A stretch of 64,000 nt of DNA. Source: Telopea speciosissima. Lineage: Eukaryota > Streptophyta > Magnoliopsida > Proteales > Proteaceae. Within the stretch, counting starts at the first letter, position 1. The number at the start of each line of letters is the position of its first letter. The notes under the pieces were generated by a model that did no database searches, was not told where the DNA came from, and saw only the letters and a program-made list of their open reading frames with translations. The DNA is taken from assembly GCF_018873765.1 (NCBI RefSeq), contig NC_057922.1:41994321-42058320 (forward strand). The letters are read 5' to 3'. Below, one piece after another: positions 26,830-64,000 of the stretch. The position numbers and the translations under genes are program-made.

Positions 26830-28560
26830 ATGGGTGACCAACCACCTAAGACTCTTAAGGACAGGTTTTACCCTGTTACGGCTGTACAGCCCTCTTGCAT
26901 CAATCTGCCTGTTGTTACAGGGAACAATTATGAACTCAAGACCCAATTCATTAGTATGCTACCTCACTTCCATGGGATGGCCAATGAAGATGCCTATCTT
27001 TTCCTTAGAGAATTTAAGGAGGTCTGTGTTCTAATTAAGGTTCAAAATTTGACTGATGATGCAGTTAGGCTTAGGTTTATACCCTTTGCCTTGAAAGAGC
27101 AGGCCAAGAAGTGGCTCTATGGACTGCCTACTAATTCCATTACCACATGGGATCAGTTCACTATTGTCTTCTTCAAAAAAAATTTCCCTCTTCACAAGAC
27201 CAATAAACTCAAGAGTGACATACTCTAGTTTAGGCAGAAACCACATGAGTTCTTCTCTAAATGCATGGAGAGATTCAAGGACCTCCTCTTAGAATGCCCT
27301 TACCATGGTTTTGACTTGTGGCAGCTATACCAAATTATTTTTGAGGGTATCGACTTTTAGACCAAGCAACTTGTAGAGTCCATGTGTCCTGCAGGCTTTA
27401 CTTCTTTTTCTGAGGAGAATGATGCATGGACATTCTTAACCAACTTGGCTGACAAGACTTGGGAGTGGGAATCTTCCCAAGAGGCTGAACGGACCACTAA
27501 GGGGTATCTTATTGAGAGTACGACAGCAAAAGAGGCCAAACTTGACAGCCTCATTAAAAGGTTGGAGTCCATAATTCTTAAAGAGTCTATACCAGTTAAC
27601 CAGGTCAACCAGGTGTCAATATGCAATTGGTGCCATACCCCTGGACATCTTATGGAAGAATGCCCCAACACCTTTGTGGGTAATTCCAACACTGAGAATG
27701 TAAGTGCCCTTTACCAAAATAATCCATATAGCAACACTTACAATCCAGGATGGAGAAATCACCCCAATTTCTCCTGGAATCAAGGGAACCAAGCAGGCCC
27801 ATCCAACTTTAACCATTAAGGCCAGCTTGGTGTCTAATGGTCCAACGATGCACCACAAAGCCAAGGAATGTCTCCTAACCCCTTCCCCCCTCGTCCTCAT
27901 TTAGGACCTTCTATTAATTGTGCTAGGCCACCTCTCCTTGCTCCTTATCAGCCACCCCCAGGATTTATCAATACAGGAGAGGCAACAAGATTGAGTGAGA
28001 TGGAAAACAAGATAGCCCTTCTCATAACAGGTCAAAACAATATAGAGAGACAGCTCACCTAGCTTGTCACCATCGTACATGAGAGAAAAATAGAAAATTA
28101 CTTAGCCAACCTGAGCCAAATCTTAGGTATGAGGTTCGTATTCAGCAAGGTACCCAAGCTCCTCCACTCAATGTTGTACAAGGTCAACAGCATCAAGGGC
28201 CCTCCAGCCAGTTAAATGCAATATATGTTTTGAGGAGTGGCCGTGAGTATTAATAGGTTAGTACACCTAAATCTCTATCATCTTATACTCCTGTTGATTC
28301 TCCCCCTTCTGAAGAGGCCGTTGTAATACCTTCTGTTCCTGGTTCGTTTGATAAACCTGAAGTAATTTCAGATGATTTGGTTGAGGAAACCAAAGATGAT
28401 TCTGTTGAGAAAGTGAAAGAGACCACCCCTGAAAGAGTTTATACCCCACCTGCCCCTTTTCCAAATAGGTTGGTTAGCAAGAAGTCTCCTTCTGTGGAGA
28501 AAATTTTGGATGTTTTTAAATAGGTTCAGGTAAACATTCCTCCATTGGATGCTATAGCCC
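26830..28560 (+). pseudogene. Gag of element E
   Basis: Starts MGDQPPKTLKDRFYP at 26830. Capsid core: QFISMLPHFHGMANEDAYLF, FALKEQAKKWLYGLP, FFKKNFPLHKTN. Stops at 27226 and 27358 (TAG, from CAG by the look of the context) and 27817. The zinc knuckle is CNWCHTPGHLMEEC near 27620. Then come Asn- and Pro-rich linkers. A region from about 28100 to 28660 is read in another frame, so two compensating indels are inferred. It should form the particle. Confidence 0.85.
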
Positions 28561-48617: not shown

Positions 48618-49903
48618 TGTCAGACCCCAAACCCCCCTGGGAGGATTAGGTTGCTGACCCGAATTGCATAACGGGAATCTGCCAAATCCCACGGATCTAG
48701 AAGCAGTTAATCCATTCACAGACACACATCCATCGTAATACAACAAGTACAACTCAGAGTGCTGCAGATAACTATATTTAAATTAAAAGATAAAGAAAAC
48801 ATAGCAGTACAAAAAATGATGTTATATACATAAATAGGTATGATCATTCCCTCTCTCACTCCCAGAAAAAGAACAGTAAAAACTAATATATACATCAACT
48901 AAAACAAAAGAAAAATATACACAGGGCGAGGTAACTCAAGCCCCAAAAAGAAAGAAGAAAACTAAAAGTAGTGACGGGGATAAACTCCTATCAAAGACAA
49001 AAAGGAGTCCCCAAGATAAAATGCATCAGCATCCACGTCAACACCCTTCACGGGTCATCTTCAGTAACCACTGAGAATACTCGCATCAACGGGATGACCT
49101 CCGTCGGGGTCCATACCAATATTAACCACCATGGCTCTCCTCAGGGTAATAAGCCTCCTCGCCACAGTGACATCGACCTACAGAATCATCTAATAGAAAA
49201 ACATATATAACAAAGTGTGAGCCCAACTGAGCCCGTGAATGAAACATTTCATCATGCATGCATATGCAACCACAATCATATGGATCCTACATGAAGTGCA
49301 GTCCAGTTATTTATTAGCCACCTAATATTATAGCTAAGGCAGGTTAGTGCTGCTACAATCCCCAATACATGTATCCCTGGTGCGGGCTTTTAACCCCTTC
49401 CCGTGATACACCCATTGAGTTGTCGGAGAGGACCAGTCAGCTCCCGTATTCGTTCACCAAGGTCAGCCCGACCAACCCTCTGTGATTAACCTATGAGGCA
49501 TCCTTCCCTTTTTCTCTTTTCTTTTATTTTCTGGCTTGTAGCTTGACATATAGCCCATAATCAGCATTCCGATGCAAACATATTTCTTTTCTCATATATT
49601 TGGTCATTCCTATAGGCATCCAACACCTTAACCCTTGTTGGCACTGGTGCGTAGCACGGGTGATGAAACTCTAATCCCATGTTTATATGGCATCGTATGA
49701 GTCAGGCGGTGCCAACGGCATCCCATTCTACGGGCTACCACATGCCTCATTTCTAAGCCGGCTACGGCATCTAGTTTAGCATTCACAATCAACATAGAGA
49801 ATTCAACCACAATTTCCAGCAATCAACACAGTATTGTATTAAATTTTAAGATTTATGAATTAAATATGTATCACAGTATTTATTGCGTCAGGAAATCATC
49901 AGC
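48618..49903 (-). repeat. LTR fragment G, same family as the LTR of element C
   Basis: Starts TGTCAGACCCC, aligning with TGTCACACCCT at 55647. About 1.29 kb matches the first 1.3 kb of the C LTR in the same orientation (for example tgacccgaattgcataa and atccccaatacatgtatccc). Cut at the right by the LTR of element B. Confidence 0.85.
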
Positions 49904-54208: not shown

Positions 54209-55646
54209 CTACTCTTCTTGGTAGTACTTCTTTAGGTGCTCTAAGTTCCAGGCACGGTCTACCTTCTTGTCCTCCGGAGTTTTCAAGCAATAGGTCCCTA
54301 GACGTATCTACTTGGAAACTATGTATGGTCATTCCCAGTTGGCTAACAACTTTCCTTCCTTTCGTGGCTGCGATGCACTTGCCCTCCTTAGGACTAGGTC
54401 CCCCTGGTGCAACAATCTTTCTCTTACTCTGGCATTGTAGTACTTGGCTGTTCACTGTTGTTATGCCACATTTTTTAGCAATGCCTTCTCTCATACCTCA
54501 TCCAGGAAGTCCAGGTTTGCTCCTAGTCCATCGGTGTAGGTGCGTTCATTGAAGTGCAATACTCTGTGGGATATGGCGAGGACCTCTACCGGTGCCAGTG
54601 CCTCTGTGCCATACGCTAGGCGGAATGGGCTTTCCCCTATGGGCGTACTTACTGTGGTTCAATATACCCACAGAACACTTAGTAGTTCCTCGATCCACTT
54701 CCCTTTGGCTCCTTCTAGCCTTTTCTTGATTCCACCTAGCAATGTTCTATTCCTCACCTCCACCTGACCATTGGCCTGTGGGTAGGCTACCGATATAGGC
54801 CGATAGTCAATGTTGTAGCTCTGACAGAAGGCTCTGAATTTGGGGTAGTTGAACTGCTTCTCGTTGTCTGACACTAGTATCCTTGGTACCCCGATTCTGT
54901 AGATGACATCGTCTCGAACAAACTTCTCCATTTCATTTTTTATTATTTTGGCCAATGGCTTTGCCTCGACCCATTTGGTGAAGTAGTCAATGGCGACCAC
55001 CAAGTACTTGTGGTTCCCTGATGCTGGTGTGAAGTTACCTAAGATGTCCACCCCCCACATGGCAAAGGGAATGGGGTTGAGGATCAATGTTAGTTTGGTG
55101 GCGGGTAGATGGGGTACTGGGGTGAACAATTGGCATTGCTCGCAAGCCTTGACGTACTATATTGCTTCCTCTTGCATTCGTGGCTAGTAGAGCCCCTGCC
55201 AGAGGAGTTTATAGGTTAGAGCTCTTCCTCCTAGGTGGCTTCCGCATATCCCCTCATGAACCTCTGCCAGGGCATACTGGGCTCCCTTGGGTCTTAGGCA
55301 CCAAAGCAGTGGTGCTGTGGCCCCCCACTTGTATAGTACTCCATCTAGGACAGTGTACTTTGCAGTTCTCATCCTTATCTTCCTCGCCTCGACCTTGTCT
55401 TTCAATAGGATGTCATTCTGTAGGTAGTTGAGTATAGGGTCCATCCAACTAGGCCCCTCCTCAATCTCATTAACCTGTTTTTCCTGATATGTTGGCTCAT
55501 GCAGTATTTCAACATAGACGACACTGACTAGGTCACAGAGCTCATCGTTGGCTAGCCTGGATAGGGCGCCGGCCGTGGCATTTTCGATCCTGGGAACCCG
55601 AACCATCTTGAACTTCTTAAACCCCCCATTTAATGCTTGAGCATGT
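54209..55646 (-). pseudogene. Integrase (and end of RNase H) of element B
   Basis: RVPRIENATAGALSRLAND (end of the second RNase H), then the zinc-binding part (EVHEGICGSHLGGRALTYKL) to about 55184. A stop, then the core at 54659-55129: MWGVDILGNFTPASGNHK, LVSDNEKQF and NGQVEVRNR give D,D,E, all present. The C-terminal segment ends HLKKYYQEE with TAG at 54209-54211. Frameshifts near 54540 and a stop near 55160. Less damaged than in A. Confidence 0.88.
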
Positions 55647-58600
55647 TGTCACACCCTAAACCATCCCCTAGGAGGATTGGATAGGTGACCCGAATTGCAT
55701 AATGGCAATCTGCTAAATCCCATGGATCTAGAAGCAAAGTTTACGATCATGGAACCACAACCATCTCTGTACCATAGGCAAGATCAGAGTGCAGTAGCAA
55801 ATAATCTACAATTCAATAATAGAAGGAAGCATAGCGATACGGGGAAATGGTGATAATATATACATAAGAAAGTTTGAACATTTTTCCCTAATCCACAAAC
55901 AAGAAACAAAGCTAATAAGTACAGTACTACATACATAGACCTATACAAGGTGAGCATACTCAACCCCAAAAGGAAAAGTAAAAAGAAACTACAACTGATC
56001 AGCAGTCATAATGAGGAAAACTCCTAACAAAACAAAAAGGAGTTCCCATAGCAAAACATCAGAAGTATACAGAATGGGTATGACCTCCGTCGGGATCCAC
56101 ACCAACATCATCATAACTACCAGGACTCTCCTCCTCGAGATGGCCCGCCATGCCACAGCGGTATCCACCTGTAAAATCATCTAAGAAAAATATTGCATAA
56201 CAGAGTGTGAGCCCGACGTAGCTCGTGAGAAAATAACATCAATCATGCATGCACATGCAATCACAATTCAAAGTTCAAATGATCCTATATGATGTGCAAG
56301 TCCAGTTTATTATTAGCCATCTAGCAATACAACTAAGTCAGGTCTGTGCTACTACAATCCCCAATACATGTATCCCTAGTGCGGGCTTCTAACCCCTTTT
56401 TGCAATACACCCATTGAGTTGTCGGAGAGGACCAGTCGACTCCCGTATTTATTCACCAAGGTCAACCCGACCAGCCCTTTGTGAGACAATCCATTTCTTT
56501 TCTGGCTTATAGCCCATATGCACCATTCCGGTGTTCTTTCATTCATGCACCATTTCGGTGTTCTATTCGTTTCTTTTTCTCTTTTCTCATTTTCTGAAGG
56601 TCGCCCCCACAGGCATCCAACACCTTAACCCCTATTGGAAAGGGTGCGTAGCTCGGGTGATGAAACTCTAGCCCCATGTCTATATGGCATCGTATGAGTC
56701 AGGTGGTGTCAACCGCATCCCATACTACGGGCAACCACGGGGCACATTTCCAAGCCGACTACTGCATCTAGTCTAACAATCATAATCACCATAGGAGAAT
56801 TCACAGTGTTGATCAACAGACAGTCATTATGCAGTGATTTGAGTAGTTTGAACAGAAGTAAATAACACAGTAATTACATTCAATTCTTATTAGCCGGCAT
56901 CAGATCATAATTACATATACACATATGATAGAATTATTCACTCACCTGAGTTGGGTTCTAAGACCTCAGTTGCAAACTCAGTTCCCACAACAGTTTGATA
57001 GTGGTCCTCAAGCATAGGATCAAGTCCTAGATGTAAATCAAAAGTCTGTTATGTTAAGTTGTCAGTCTGTCACTAGGAGTCCTAAGGTTACCCTAAACTT
57101 ACTGGGTTGACCCGAGGTTTAGTAGGTTCTCACTTGGAATTACTAGGCCTTGCACTGGGCCTTAGGTCATGTCCCGGTGCCTCAACTAGCGTCAGTGGCT
57201 CAAAGGGGTAAAATGGTCATTAATAAGGTTTGCACCTAGCCCTAGGTCAGAATGTGTTTACAGTGTTGTCCACAGCTTGTCTATGCTATAGGACCAAGCA
57301 CAGCGGGGCTTCATTCACCTGCGGGGCCCACTAGGATTCCAAAACATTTCCAAACAAGGTCAGATGTGGGGAAGGGCTTTTTGGATATTTTCCAGCCTTC
57401 CCATAGTGTCCAGGGGTCAAAGGGTGAGGTTCCCCAGGTCTGATCATCAATATAGCCAATTTTCCTTCACTGGGCGTTGGCTCTGGGCGATGTTTGCATC
57501 GCCCAGTGCCCTCAAATCGACATTGGGCTGAGTTCCCAAGGCTAGGCTTTTCAGACTAGGCTTATACTTGATCCTCTGCATGTTTGGGGGATCAGGTAAC
57601 CCCTGAGATGGCCTACCCATTGGTCCAATTGGATCAACCATCAGGTCCACCATCAGACTGCCAGAGCTGCCTAAGCAGTCCCAGTGAATAGTGTCATAGG
57701 GTTTTGGCAAGCTTGGGAATCCGATTTCAACCATATGCAAGGCTAGAAAAGCCTGAAAAAATAATGGTTCATGGTTGTAACCAGCTAGGGTTTGGTCTCT
57801 GCAGCCCTAGCTTGGACCCAGGACTCTAATCAGCTCATCTGGAGCAAATCTGGGCAGTGCAGTAGAGCACAGCCAGATTCAACTCCCAAGAACAGCATAT
57901 CAGACTTTTAAAATTATGAAAAAATCACAGATCTTCCATGCATAAGTTCTACAAGGGAGATCTGGAGCAGATCTGGGCAAACGCTAGCTATTCTGGGCTG
58001 CCCAGGAAATATGAACACAGTATACATAGAGAAGGAATAGGGACAACAGGTATAGGGGGTGTCTTATACCTGAAATAGGTAGAAGCAGCTCGAATTCAGG
58101 CTGGATAGGGGGTGGCAGCAGCTCCCTCTTCTTCTTCCTTCTCCTCTCTTCTTCCCCTTCCTCTTCTTCCTCTTTTTTTTTTCTCTCCTTTCTCTCCCAC
58201 GGATTCCCAATAGAGCAAGAGCTCTAAATGAGCTCAAACTTGCCTATTTATAGACCCAGCCCCAAGTAGGGCATGTTTGGCCACTAAGTCCCCTTTTAAA
58301 AATCAGTTTTGAAACTGATTCAGACTGATTCTGGGCACACTGGTGGGGTCCACAGTGAACTGAGGGCATGAAGTGGTCCCTCAAGCTTCCCTCTATCAGT
58401 GGAGGGTGCCCATGTCCATAATGGGTGGTCCCCATATTTAAAATAATTAAAAATGTACAGAATCAGTCACTGGGCGATGTCTCTGGGCCTTGCTGCATCG
58501 CCCAGTGAATTACAGCAAGCTGAAATTCAATGGGGGCTTGCACAGGGTTTAGCCCTAAGTCAGGGCATTGTCCCCGTATGCCCATTAGGGGTTTTTGGCA

Positions 58601-58855
58601 CATTTTTACATAGGTGGGTCTCATAGTAATGGGGAGGAGAGAGATTACCTGGGTTCCAGGCCATACATCAGACTATGAGCTGTGCAAGTGCAGGGGTCCA
58701 CTGTCCATCTTCTCACAGGCATAAAGGAGGACATGCACAGGGTTTCTTCATTGATCCATGTCATTGGAGTGATGCTCCATAGTGATCCCAGTTGGATGAT
58801 CAGGGGTTCCTATCCTTGAACCAGAATTCCAGCTAGTCAGGAGTAGGGTTTGACA
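55647..58855 (-). repeat. 3' LTR of element C (3209 bp)
   Basis: On the minus strand starts TGTCAAACCC after the PPT and ends ..GGGTGTGACA, so the ends form a short inverted repeat. A TATA box (TATAAATAGG) lies at about 58246-58255. A possible donor (TTTCAG/GTATAAG, 58069) and acceptor (TTCTTAG/ATGATT, 56181) lie inside. It is related to G (48618-49903) and, distantly, to H. Confidence 0.88.
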
Positions 58856-58869
58856 TTTCTCCCCACCTT
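58856..58869 (-). promoter_or_regulatory. Polypurine tract of element C
   Basis: On the minus strand aaggtggggagaaa, between the pol stop at 58868 and the LTR start. Confidence 0.85.
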
Positions 58870-59308
58870 ACAAAAATTTTGTCCTCGAAATTTGCTTACC
58901 TTGTAATCCAAAAAGTTGAGGGTACTTCTCTTTCATTTCTTCCTCACATTCCCAAGAAGCTTCTTCTACTGGGTTATATCCCCATCGAACTTTCATGAAG
59001 GCGACGGTGCGATTACGGAGGTTATGCTCCTTTCTGTCCAGTACCTCCGTGGGGTGTTCTTCGTAGGTCATATCCGTATCTCACTGTTTAGGTTCAGCTG
59101 ATAACACATATGTCAGATTGTTTAAGTACTTTCGTAGCATTGACACATGAAGCAATCCCTTAGGTGGTAATACTCGAAGGAATATTTTTTCTCTGACCTC
59201 GAACTCAATATCCTTCCTTCGATTATTTGCATAATTCTTCAGTCTTGATTGGGCTGCCTTGATCTTCTCTCTTATGACGTCCACCTTGTCACAAGTCACT
59301 TGAATCAT
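58868..59308 (-). pseudogene. Integrase C-terminus and chromodomain of element C
   Basis: FEVREKIFLRVLPPKGL, FHVSMLRKY-like segment, then after a TGA/TAG near 59078 EEHPTEVLDRKEHNLRNR and VRWGYNPVEEASWECEEEM, which form a chromodomain. It ends RTKFL with TAA at 58868. Chromodomains steer insertion of chromoviruses to marked chromatin. Same frame as the rest of pol. Confidence 0.88.
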
Positions 59309-59344: not shown

Positions 59345-60076
59345 CTAATAAAGCAGAGTTCGACACTTCCTGCCATAGAGTGCTTCGAACGGTGCCATGC
59401 CAATGGTGGAGTGATAGCTATTATTGTATGTAAATTTCACCAATGCTATGTGAGCATCCCAACTGTCATTCATTTCTAGAGCACAGGCTTGGAGCATATC
59501 CTCTAAGGTTTGGATGGTTCTCTCTGACTGTCCGTCAATCTGTGGATGGAAAGTTGTGCTAAGATTTAATTGAGATCCCAATGCTTGTTGCAAACTTCTC
59601 CAAAACCTTGAAGTAAATCGAGGATCTCTGTCAGACACAATACTGACAGGCATACCATGCAAGCGGACTATGTTCTCAATGTATATCTGGGCAAGCTTCT
59701 CCATTGGATAACTTATTTTAATTGGTATGAAGTGAGCTACCTTTGTCAGTCCGCCTACGATCACCCAAATCGCGTCCATACCCTTTCTAGTGTTGGGCAG
59801 ATTCGTTACAAAATCCATAGTGATTCTTTCCCACTTCCACTCAGGTATGGGAAGTGGCTGTAATAAACCATACGGTTGGTGTCTTTCTGCTTTTATCTGC
59901 TGACAATTAAGGCACTTGGATGCGTATATTGCTATGGTCTGCTTCATTCCAATCCACCAGTAATACTTCTTCAAGTCCTTGTACATCTTTGTACTTATGG
60001 GGTGGATTGCATAGGGTGAGCTGTGCGCCTCTTTATGAATTCGGTCTTGGACATCATAGTCATCTGGCACGCACAA
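59345..60076 (-). pseudogene. Integrase of element C
   Basis: H2C2 zinc-binding part: HKEAHSSPYAIHPISTKMY, CLNCQQIKAERHQP. Core: MDFVTNLPNTRKGMDAIWVI, VSDRDPRFTSRFW, and GQSERTIQTLEDML give the D,D,E set. FEALYGRKCRTLLY ends this open stretch. An unbroken 243-codon region. Confidence 0.9.
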
Positions 60077-60142
60077 TCTATCTCAAAACTTCAATGCACC
60101 ATCTTGGGCCAAGGAAAAATCTGGGTCCTTACGGACTCCTTG

Positions 60143-61729
60143 TTATACTTCCCGAATTATCTTGGCCAGCTCAGGATCCAATGGTTGCATCACAATTATC
60201 TCCTCTCGTATCGACGGTTGCAGGTCCATTGTTGCTAATTGCATACCCGCTTTTTTGACCACGAGTTCTAAATCAAAATTTTGAGCTTCTTTTATTAATT
60301 GCTCACTTACGACCAAAGATGCGAGGGACGCAGTCTGAGATTTTTTGCTTAATGCATCCGCCACAACATTGGCCCTACCGGGGTGGTACTGAATTTCACA
60401 ATCATAGTCTTTCACCAATTCCAACCACTGTCTCTGTCTCATGTTTAGCTCCTTTTGGGTGAAGAATTACTTCAAACTTTTGTGATCGCTAAAGATTTTA
60501 CTCTTTTCACCATATAGGTAGTATCGCCAAATTTTCAACGTAAAGACTACCGCTGCCAACTCCAAATCATGGGTGGGGTAATTCTTCTCTTGTTCCTTCA
60601 ACTGCCTGGAGGTGTAGGTGACTACCTTACCTCTTTGCATTAGGACGCCACCTAATCCTGTCTTAGATGTGTTGGTGTATACCACCATTCCTCCGGTTTC
60701 GTCTGGAATGGTAAGAACTGAAGCCGATACTAACCAATTTTTCAATTCCTAAAAGCTTTTCTCGCACGCTTCATTCCATTCAAACTTAGCACCCTTCTTT
60801 GTGAGCTTCATCATGGGCGCCGAGATGCGCAAGAAATTCTCAATAAATCGGCGGTAGTAACCAGCCAATCCCAGGAAACTTTGGATCTCAGTGGCATTCT
60901 TTGGTGTCTCCCACTTGAGAACCGCTTTCACCTTGTCGGGGTCTACTTTGATGCAGTCCTTGGTGACGATATGCCCTAGGAATCCAATTTGGTGAAGCCA
61001 AAATTCACATTTGCTGAATTTGGCAAAGAGCTGGTGTTCTCGCAACCGCTGCAATACGGAAGTAAGGTGTCGTGCGTGCTCTTCCTCACTCTTAGAGTAC
61101 ACCAGGATGTCATCAATAAATACTATGACGAACTTATCCAACATGTCATGGTATACTCTATTCATCATATCCATGAATGCTGCCAGGGCATTGGTTAATC
61201 CGAACGATAAAACTAAGAATTCATAGTGTCTGTATCGAGTTTGGAACGCCGTTTTATGAATGTCACCGCTTTTGATCTTCAGTTGATGGTATCCTAACCT
61301 AAGATCAATCTTGAAGAAAACTCTTGCTCCTTCTAGTTGATCAAATAGGTCATCGATATGTGGCAATGGATATCAATTCTTGATCGTCAGTATATTCAAG
61401 TCGTGGTAGTCGATACACAACCGCATACTACCATCCTTCTTCTTTATGAACAGCACAGGTGCTCCCCAGGGTGATACACTGGGTCGAATGAATCCCTTCT
61501 TTAGTAGGTCTTAAAGTTGTGTCTGCAATTCTTTCAATTTGATAGGTGCCATTCGGTATGGTGCCTTGGATATCGGTGCTACTCCAGGAATCAGATCGAT
61601 TGCGAACTCTATATCGTGGTCCGGTGGCAGCTGAGTCAGATCTTCTGAAAATACATCAGGAAACTCTCTGATGACGTGGAGTTCATCCAGGGGTTTTATC
61701 TTTACCTTCGTGTCTATCACAGTGGCCAA
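60143..61729 (-). pseudogene. Reverse transcriptase and RNase H of element C
   Basis: Start of RT at 61511-61729 (VIREFPDVFSEDLTQLPPDH, PISKAPYRMAPIKLKEL). Nonsense at 61511 and near 61367 (TGA for CGA), then [45 protein letters not shown] and [12 protein letters not shown] (IDD catalytic motif kept; GLTN with A in place of P). RNase [18 protein letters not shown] (T for the usual D), [28 protein letters not shown]; stops near 60746 and 60466. Then [20 protein letters not shown]. All in one frame. Confidence 0.88.
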
Positions 61730-61762: not shown

Positions 61763-62166
61763 CGCCTAAAGTGTGGATAATGTTATCCTTTTGGATTTCC
61801 TCCTTGGTTCACTTTGATAGGTGAAGTCTGACCCATCTTCCAGTTTAAATTTTATCTTTTTCTCAGCACATAAGACGTGTGCACCATAGGCAGATAGCCA
61901 ATCCATGCCTAGTATCACGTCAAAATCATTTATATCCATCTTTATCAATCGTGCGGTTAGTTTCCTCCCATAAATCTCAATCTGACAAGGGTTGTAGACC
62001 TCCTTCAAACTCCCAACACTCCCTATCGGTGTGCTGACTACTAGCTCATGCCCAATGTCTCTTGGTTGATCTTTCATCTTACTGGCAAAGATTGAGGAGA
62101 CGAAAGAGTGGGTTGCGCCCAAGTCGAATAATACTCGTGCGGGTATGGTCGAGACATTCAGGGTAC
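61763..62166 (-). pseudogene. Protease of element C
   Basis: Begins with TLNVSTIPARVLFDLGATHS (FDLGA active site), then IDINDFDVILGMDWL-like MDWLSAYGA. The first codons (62166-62123) come straight after the intron-like segment. TAG/TAA near 61763 ends it; RT continues in frame. Confidence 0.88.
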
Positions 62167-62243
62167 CTAGGGTTTGTAGGTGATTTAGGTTACATGAAGT
62201 AAGCTAATTATTCCCTATAGTTAAGTAGTGTTCAACAACTTAC
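62167..62243 (-). other. Intron-like segment between gag and protease of element C (77 nt)
   Basis: On the minus strand it starts GTAAGTTGTTG (62243) and ends CAAACCCTAG (62167). It is AT-rich and carries stop codons in the gag frame. Removing it joins LTS in gag to TLNVSTIPA in PR, in frame and at a place where related elements read without a break. 62244 is the first base of a codon, completed by 62166-62165. A 77-nt insertion that is not a multiple of three would otherwise separate gag from pol. Confidence 0.7.
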
Positions 62244-63586
62244 TTGTCAATACATCGGGGTTTGCCTCAGCTTCTTCATTTGTTAAAGCGTACACCTTTC
62301 CTTGCATCCGATTGTCCCGTGGCTGGAATGGCCTAGTATAGGGCTGATTTGGCAAGTTGTTGCCATATCCATGCGACCTACAATCTCTGGCCATATGCCC
62401 TTCCTTGTTGCATAGATAGCACTTAAAGGGTGGAACTCCAGGTGTCGAGGCTTTGCTCGCTTAGCTTATTACTGGTTGGGCTGGCGAGGCTGCTGTTATC
62501 GCTTGACTCGGTGTAGGTTGAGCAGGTCGGGTATATGTGGGGCGGAAAGGGGTCTGTCCCATGGTCGGCCTACGGTACAGAGTCAAAGTAGGGCTTGAAC
62601 TTGTTCCTCGGTAAACTTTATTTGGCCAGCCATAGGTTTGAAAATTACTTGGCCTTTTGTTAAACCCAGACGATGTCATAGTCTTTTCTTTCTCCTTTTC
62701 CTTGAACCTATCCTCCATTGTCTTCGCCTTATCAACCGTTTGAGCATAATCCCGAATGTCCATAATTGACAGCACTGACCCAATTTCAGTTTTGAGTCCC
62801 TTTTCAAATTTCTTAGCCTTACTAACTTCCCCCTTCAGGTGCTCTGGAGCAAAATGGAACAGGTCTTCAAACCACTATTGATCGTCCAGCACTGATTTGG
62901 TTCTTTGCACCAGTGCAATAAACTCTGCTTCTTTCCTGTCCTTAAAGCTCTCAGGGAAGTAGTTCTTAACGAAATTTTCTTTAAACTGCGCCCACATAGG
63001 ATTTGGGTGGGCAGCTTCCAAATTAGGCCTAGTTACCTTCCACCAAGCTTCAGCTTCATTCTACAACTGATAACCCGCACATATAATCTTTTGTGCGTCC
63101 GTGCACTCAAGTACTTCAAATGCCTTTTCTAGGGCACTGATCCATCGTTCTGGCTGCATTGCCTCAGAGGTTATTTTCAAAAAATATAGGCGGTTAGAGT
63201 TTCTTGAATCTCTCCATAACCTTGGCGGTGGAATTTTTGGCTAAATGCTGAGGCACAGGTGGTGGAAATAGCACGGGTCGATTGGGTGGTGGTGGTGGTG
63301 TAGCGCGCTTGTCCGTCATGGTTGCAAACTGTGTAGACATTTGACCAAAAAATTTTTGTTGTTGTTGCATGGTATGCATCATCGTGGTCATGAATGCGGT
63401 CACGTCGCCGGCTCCCACACTTGGCTGAGGTGCTGCAGCAGTAGCTTGTGCAGCCACTGGTGCTCCTGACGAAGCAGCCGATGCCTCAGAGTTTTGAGCC
63501 TCAGTTTCGTTAGGTAGCTCAACCTTCGGTACCACTCTAGGTTGTTTACCTTTACGTCCTCCACGAGAACTTCTAGTGTTGACCAT
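62244..63586 (-). pseudogene. Gag of element C
   Basis: Starts MVNTRSSRGGRKGKQPR at 63586. A Pro/Ala/Gln-rich N-terminus reaches FKKL, then a one-base frameshift lies near 63170. The capsid core follows: FEVLECTDAQKIICAGYQL, MWAQFKENFVKNYFP, FKDRKEAEFI, LKGEVSKAKKFEKGL. Nonsense codons (TAG) lie near 63065 and 62880, and a TAA at 62461. The CCHC knuckle is CYLCNKEGHMARDC at 62421-62380. The unspliced reading ends LLNTT at a TAA in the intron-like segment. Confidence 0.85.
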
Positions 63587-64000
63587 TGTTGCTTCTTTGA
63601 AAAGAGGAGCGTGTTCAATATTTCAATCTCATCTATATGGATCAACAGTTGTTTCCTAACTAAGCAGGTGCAAATCCAGTCCACAGTTCCAATGAGTATC
63701 ACAAGTCATACCAATAAGGTGGATTGTTAGATTCATTGTCTTGGTTTATTAGGTGATGTGTCTCATTAAATACTTTATGTTTCTCTTTCTTATGCCTTTT
63801 ATGTGTTAATATGCTATGCATGGCACTAATGAAAATTTTCAAATTTTTAAATAAAAACTTTTAATTATTTACCTGATCTAGCAGGCAAGCATCTCCAGCT
63901 TCTTCCTGGTTACAAACTCCATTGCCACTAGAAATTCTATGTCAGCTCTTACCTCTTCAGCTAGTCTCATAAAATACTCTCGATCCTCAGGTCCATTAAT

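Follow-up and report, generated by a model that had tools for sequence, protein, structure and literature searches.

A putative 77-nt intron between gag and pol in a chromovirus lineage of the waratah, with nested copies that suggest its exact loss through spliced RNA

Single-ORF chromoviruses are abundant in many plant genomes, and how they come to make more Gag than Pol is unsettled. A decayed Ty3/gypsy element of the waratah Telopea speciosissima raises this question anew, since its gag and the protease that begins its pol are held apart by 77 nt and, as 77 = 3 × 25 + 2, lie in two different reading frames. Could this segment be an intron whose removal links the two? We addressed this in a 64-kb stretch of contig C7 (the window) and through searches of the 823-Mb genome for further copies of the segment and of the site that it occupies.

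The element lies on the minus strand from about 55.6 kb to past the window end, with the domain order PR-RT-INT in a Pfam search and with further stop codons in both gag and pol (Table 1). No chromodomain match was obtained for the window copy at 1e-3, and the Chromo match in copy L015 (E 0.0016) falls under Pfam's cut-off, so that the evidence for a chromodomain is weak. The 5′ LTR of the element is beyond the window end; the LTR pair is 89.25% identical over 2,400 aligned nt (K2P 0.075), which at a substitution rate of 1.3e-8 per site and year corresponds to about 2.9 million years. Directly after the 5′ LTR comes the primer site TGGTATCAGAGC, which we take to be of the tRNA-Met type, and from this site, the LTR length of 3.2 kb and the style of the sequence we presume that the element probably belongs to the Tekay/Del clade. 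No relatives of the protease were found among viral contigs. The leader between primer site and gag is 3.2 kb long and holds an ORF antisense to the element (L055:1095-1562 (+), or 65095-65562 if window positions are continued past its end), with a weak match to Transposase_32 (E 7.2e-08, below cut-off); this ORF is antisense in eight of nine long loci, the ninth, L043, being a short contig.

Other features share the window with the element. About 7 kb from the chromovirus 3′ LTR, blocks at 48634-49797 match portions of it (55665-56794) with 78-86% identity; they probably represent another LTR fragment from this family. At 54659-55648 a different retroelement, which by eye looks Tat/Athila-like, has left integrase/RNase H pieces on the minus strand that border directly on the 3′ LTR end, and a plant snoRNA, snoR71, lies on the minus strand at 27205-27311.

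Table 1. Features of the waratah chromovirus and of its putative intron, in window positions (a slash marks an exon–intron boundary).
Feature	Position	Strand	Remarks
Putative intron, gag/protease boundary	62167..62243	-	77 nt; in 30/30 aligned copies
Putative 5′ splice site GTAAGT	62238..62243	-	Common context CAG/GTAAGT; fourth base T in 4/30 copies
Putative 3′ splice site CCCTAG/GT	62167..62172	-	A in 30/30, G in 28/30 copies
Candidate branch-point region CTAAAT	62183..62188	-	About 18-20 nt before the acceptor; placed by eye
In-frame stop TAA, predicted Gag end in unspliced RNA	62221..62223	-	Same codon in 29/30 copies
gag, first part (open piece, MVNTRSSRGG...)	63197..63622	-	No Pfam match at 1e-3
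gag, further piece	62464-62874	-	No Pfam match
gag end, CCHC zinc knuckle (open piece)	62224..62460	-	Pfam zf-CCHC, E 4.3e-07
pol start after the putative intron, retroviral aspartyl protease	61769..62166	-	Pfam RVP_2, E 1.1e-32 (piece 61769-62203)
Reverse transcriptase piece	60752..61372	-	Pfam RVT_1, E 3.6e-26
Integrase piece (H2C2 zinc finger)	59348..60082	-	Pfam Integrase_H2C2, E 2.5e-13
Chromodomain-like integrase end	58903..59071	-	Equivalent stretch of copy L015 matches Chromo
3′ LTR	55649..58856	-	About 3.2 kb; start set by eye

Plant U2-type introns have GT...AG ends and favour a CAG/GTAAGT context at the donor, and the ends and context of the segment fit this consensus. Read on the minus strand, the junctions are TTGACAA/GTAAGTTG...AACCCTAG/GTACCCTG, with GT at 62243-62242 and AG at 62168-62167. 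Across 30 aligned copies the G of the donor is kept in 29 and its T in all, GT and AG are both intact in 27, and the exon base before the donor is G in 27, with A in the window copy and two others. The pyrimidine tract at the acceptor is weak and not clear-cut; each letter of CTAAAT, which may serve as the branch point, is kept in 28-30 copies. The segment is richer in A+T (65.6%) than the gag side (50.6%) or the pol side (55.4%), and in its common form carries the 5-nt repeat AGGTA at both ends. In the window copy the gag frame enters the segment at 62244 and stops seven codons on, at the TAA at 62223-62221, and the pol frame restarts past the acceptor; a gag-frame stop lies within the segment in all 30 copies, two codons later in L017. 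An earlier note, made from the window's sequence, had described an intron-like GTAAGT...CCCTAG segment of 77 nt between gag and PR (62243-62167), whose removal would bring gag and pol into one frame and whose retention would end Gag at an internal TAA, and the present analysis bears this out.

The segment is a shared feature of this family. From 1,915 genome candidates for a 401-nt stretch around it, 40 copies were scored, all of which align across the segment, the 39 others being 89-92% identical to the window copy; it is present in 30 of 30 aligned loci, with a length of 77 nt in 29 and of 78 nt in one. A 26-nt pattern spanning the donor junction matches 478 genomic places at up to 3 mismatches (control 0). 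A chance or private insertion is thus ruled out by its presence in 30 of 30 copies, and neither of the two outcomes that the earlier note had named as marks of a mere insertion, a segment confined to the window copy or altered splice sites in its sisters, was found. On C1, two donor junctions stand in the same orientation only 67 nt apart (G000:C1:48320034 and 48320101), suggesting that the intron region was duplicated locally in tandem. The pol-side frame is open throughout the examined stretch in 0 of 51 loci. Protein searches for gene models, with length limited to 0.55-1.75 times that of the query, gave 3,012 and 784 matches; among the matches listed (the best 120 of each) there was no annotated protein of the intron family itself and the best Telopea protein was P0003, at 60% and 53% identity, so that the annotation is silent on splicing and speaks neither for nor against it.

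As a proxy for change during the active life of the family, we counted alignment columns with a variant common to at least 4 of the 30 copies. Such columns number 5 of 77 in the putative intron, 120 of 400 at third codon positions and 120 of 800 at first and second positions (Fisher p 3.7e-6 against third and 0.04 against first and second positions, the columns not being independent events). The deficit persists among A/T columns only (p 0.002) and is gone when transversions only are counted (3 of 77 versus 22 of 400, p 0.78), and rare variants, as expected of decay, are alike everywhere (0.38-0.48 of columns). The low shared variation of the putative intron is therefore supportive rather than decisive.

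If the segment was inserted into a working frame, relatives with an empty site might survive, and such copies, whose existence the earlier note had raised as a question, do occur. A pattern for the directly joined flanks, of the same 26-nt length and tolerance (up to 3 mismatches) as that for the donor junction, matches 21 genomic places (control 0). With exact, shorter flanks we obtained 4 matches for gaps of 0-30 nt, every one with gap 0 (patterns of a different design and stringency from those behind the 478 donor places), and no match in the genome for gaps of 31-61 nt. All 21 joined copies are in frame at the junction, reading V, then L, M or I, then T, I or A, followed directly by GTL; they are stop-free for 7 codons before and 9 after the junction, many having a decayed stop soon beyond. 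In a loose scan of 220 related plant proteins the protease-start motif was found in 56, of which 53 have G, then T (or K, I, N, R or M), then a hydrophobic residue at the place equivalent to the junction, and TGTL appears in 7 of 8 example proteins shown. Since all joined copies are in frame and the GTL link is usual in related proteins, the intron-less state looks ancestral, and the segment appears to interrupt a single-frame organization exactly.

Phylogenies of the gag-side and pol-side flanks, built separately from 51 rows each (30 intron, 21 intron-less), bear on how the segment came and went. In the gag tree a 35-row clade (support 99) contains all 30 intron copies, and 16 of the 21 intron-less copies fall outside it. 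Three intron-less copies, L043, L044 and L032, are deeply nested within it, L032 pairing with the intron copy L028, and two more, L041 and L050, stand at or near its base without resolution of their position. The pol tree again nests L043 and L044 deeply; it places the intron copies L017, L018, L023 and L028 outside the remaining 26, with an 11-row intron-less clade between L028 and those 26, leaves the placement of L032 ambiguous and, taken alone, requires 6 changes. A smaller pol tree of 36 rows, which omits the 11-row clade and comprises 29 intron copies (all except L025), the intron-less L031, L033, L034 and L042 and the three nested copies, pairs L043 with the intron copy L015 and L044 with L006 (100/99) and sets L032 among intron copies. 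For seven copies (L017, L018, L023, L028, L032, L041 and L050) the gag and pol flanks disagree in their placement between the two trees, which points to recombination between subfamilies.

Approximately unbiased (AU) tests of the intron clade on 43 of the 51 rows (excluding L025, L032, L037, L038, L041, L047, L048 and L050) reject a clade without L043 and L044 on both sides (gag p 1.6e-7, pol p 2.4e-5). Once these two copies are added, the gag tree unites the intron copies in one clade (support 99), and such a clade is not rejected for pol (p 0.13). The gag-side tree is consistent with a single gain and later exact losses in two or three nested copies, and the pol-side tree, in which the one-gain reading is not rejected, has probably been blurred by recombination. 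As to whether the losses were independent, pairing L043 with L044, L032 with L043 or L032 with L044 is not rejected for gag (p 0.15, 0.087 and 0.16; trio 0.045) and is rejected for pol (p 0.0012, 0.011 and 0.0077), so that independence is supported on the pol side and not on the gag side.

These observations argue for a genuine spliceosomal intron, gained once in this chromovirus lineage at a CAG/GT site, a reading to which we assign a probability of roughly 0.8. By this account the intron would have entered a formerly single gag-pol frame; unspliced RNA would yield Gag with a short tail (GKLLNTT) before the stop, removal of the 77 nt would yield a Gag-Pol polyprotein with the canonical link, and splicing of part of the transcripts would set the ratio of the two. 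Unspliced RNA would be the usual template of new copies, given that reverted copies number two or three and intron-bearing ones hundreds. Splicing itself is deduced from its genomic footprints, and we infer that it is partial and that the ratio is a target of selection. We hold with somewhat less assurance, though still as the likelier course, a fuller history: one gain, perhaps through an insertion whose 5-nt duplication supplied the splice-site context, recruited as a switch between Gag and Gag-Pol in the manner of Ogre elements, with intron-less and intron-bearing copies and repeated retro-spliced reversions now coexisting.

The strongest competing reading, which we regard as unlikely, accepts a real intron and denies it a role: it would be spliced constitutively or by accident and merely tolerated, its Gag-only product having no regulatory function. 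A single gag-pol frame can evidently work, as the intron-less relatives have one. If packaged RNA were nearly all spliced, however, most new copies would be intron-less, whereas the 478 places with the donor junction compare with 21 joined ones, only two or three of these nested in the intron clade; the stop inside the segment, too, has been kept in every one of the 30 copies.

Two further readings, each improbable in our judgement, concern the nested copies, and are best weighed against what surrounds their junctions. L043, L044 and L032 lack exactly the 77 nt, as expected from reverse transcription of spliced RNA, which such exact losses in two or three nested copies would suggest. In L032 both LTRs are present (K2P 0.056), and a natural open frame of 334 + 210 codons spans the junction; L044 has LTR pieces with identities of 91.2% (565 nt) and 92.5% (361 nt); and L043, on a 7.7-kb contig, has no LTR matches. 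By one alternative the segment is an inert insertion that these copies lost by deletion between its flanking 5-nt repeats, and with AGGTA at both ends of the common form the product of such a deletion would be indistinguishable from that of splicing. Against this, among 23 deletions of at least 10 nt in 30 copies across 3,395 columns, the two of at least 40 nt both lack end repeats, and end repeats of at least 5 nt occur in two short deletions (24 and 14 nt), although 334 repeat pairs similar in size and spacing are available. If 3 long repeat-mediated deletions per 30 copies are taken as an upper limit, one that is not strict because the copies were chosen by similarity and may undercount deletions, about 0.15 exact losses would be expected among some 480 copies, against the 3 seen (Poisson p 0.0005), making repeat-mediated deletion an unlikely cause.

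By the other alternative the nested copies are recombinants in which template switching brought in the empty junction of intron-less relatives, and recombination between subfamilies is indeed visible in seven copies, L032 among them. The letters near their junctions nevertheless side mostly with the intron copies. At 20 upstream and 12 downstream positions diagnostic of intron versus intron-less type, L043 carries the intron-type letter at 19 and 11, L044 at 19 and 9 and L032 at 17 and 9, like their sisters. When the 90 nt on either side of the junction are compared, the eight closest relatives of each of the three are all intron copies, with mean differences of 22-28 to intron copies versus 38-39 to intron-less ones. 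Both comparisons are blind to tracts shorter than the distance to the nearest diagnostic sites. We therefore infer that the nested copies arose from spliced RNA.

Least probable is a programmed -1 ribosomal frameshift within the segment that would link gag and pol without splicing. In 26 of 30 copies the pol frame is open back beyond the gag stop, so that the two frames overlap by 16 nt in 22 copies, by 22 nt in L017 and by 31-43 nt in L007, L013 and L028, the donors of which have no TAA; the other four, L001, L012, L025 and L026, have no overlap. But none of the 30 copies has an X XXY YYZ heptamer in such an overlap, the RNA of the window copy folds no better than its shuffled versions (z -0.27), and a frameshift accounts for neither the splice consensus nor the exact losses.

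The arrangement favoured here, an intron whose partial splicing sets Gag against Gag-Pol, resembles that of Ogre elements of the Tat lineage, which are non-chromovirus Ty3/gypsy elements. Neumann et al. 2019 describe, in the available part of their text, a mostly single-ORF organization with gaps averaging 274 bp in Ogre and 172 bp in Bianca, and cite experiments that identify the Ogre gap as an intron, removed from only some of the transcripts to give an RNA that encodes the full polyprotein (PMC6317226). Both systems place an intron between parts of a polyprotein, with partial splicing proposed for the waratah element. They differ in that the Ogre gap, 274 bp on average, lies between GAG-PROT and RT, whereas the waratah intron has 77 nt and lies between gag and protease, and in that the waratah element has a chromodomain-like end and close relatives in the same genome that are free of the intron. 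Identity with Ogre was rejected on these grounds, as the intron precedes the protease instead of separating it from RT and L015 has the chromodomain-like match; the element would work like an Ogre without being one. As the earlier note had stated, the scheme is known from Ogre, and our literature search, judged from titles and abstract openings and directed mainly at papers outside subscription, found no chromovirus intron among the papers listed.

Other plant elements offer partial parallels. According to the accessible part of a 2025 review, plant LTR elements are generally intron-free, with Ogre and EVADE as notable exceptions, and splicing of the Ty1/copia elements EVADE and BARE1 yields RNA pools that differ in Gag and Pol output (PMC12786077); there the spliced RNA gives Gag and the full-length RNA Gag-Pol, and the waratah element would do the reverse. 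Direct RNA sequencing in sunflower is reported, in the part available, to show two spliced Ty1/copia elements (PMC7730604). The single-ORF chromovirus LORE1 has a gag-pol with a C-terminal chromodomain, as the waratah element appears to have, and the available text describes a unique long ORF and mentions no intron, unlike the waratah family (PMC2832683). Introners, which are introns born from transposons, may draw their splice sites from a short duplicated target, and the available account of them reports none in land plants (PMC9860276). The AGGTA flanks of the waratah intron recall this pattern, but there is no sign of the 77-nt sequence spreading by itself: its core 27-mer matches 408 places against 478 for the donor junction, with no excess of the core as far as counts alone are compared.

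One chromovirus lineage appears to have turned to splicing to make its excess of Gag, a solution convergent with that of Ogre. Since reverted copies survive alongside intron-bearing and intron-less ones, the family also documents in nature how a coding frame gained an intron, and the frequency with which spliced RNA is packaged and copied could be estimated from the rate at which exact losses arise. If this is true, the birth, recruitment and loss of an intron would be readable from the copies in one genome.
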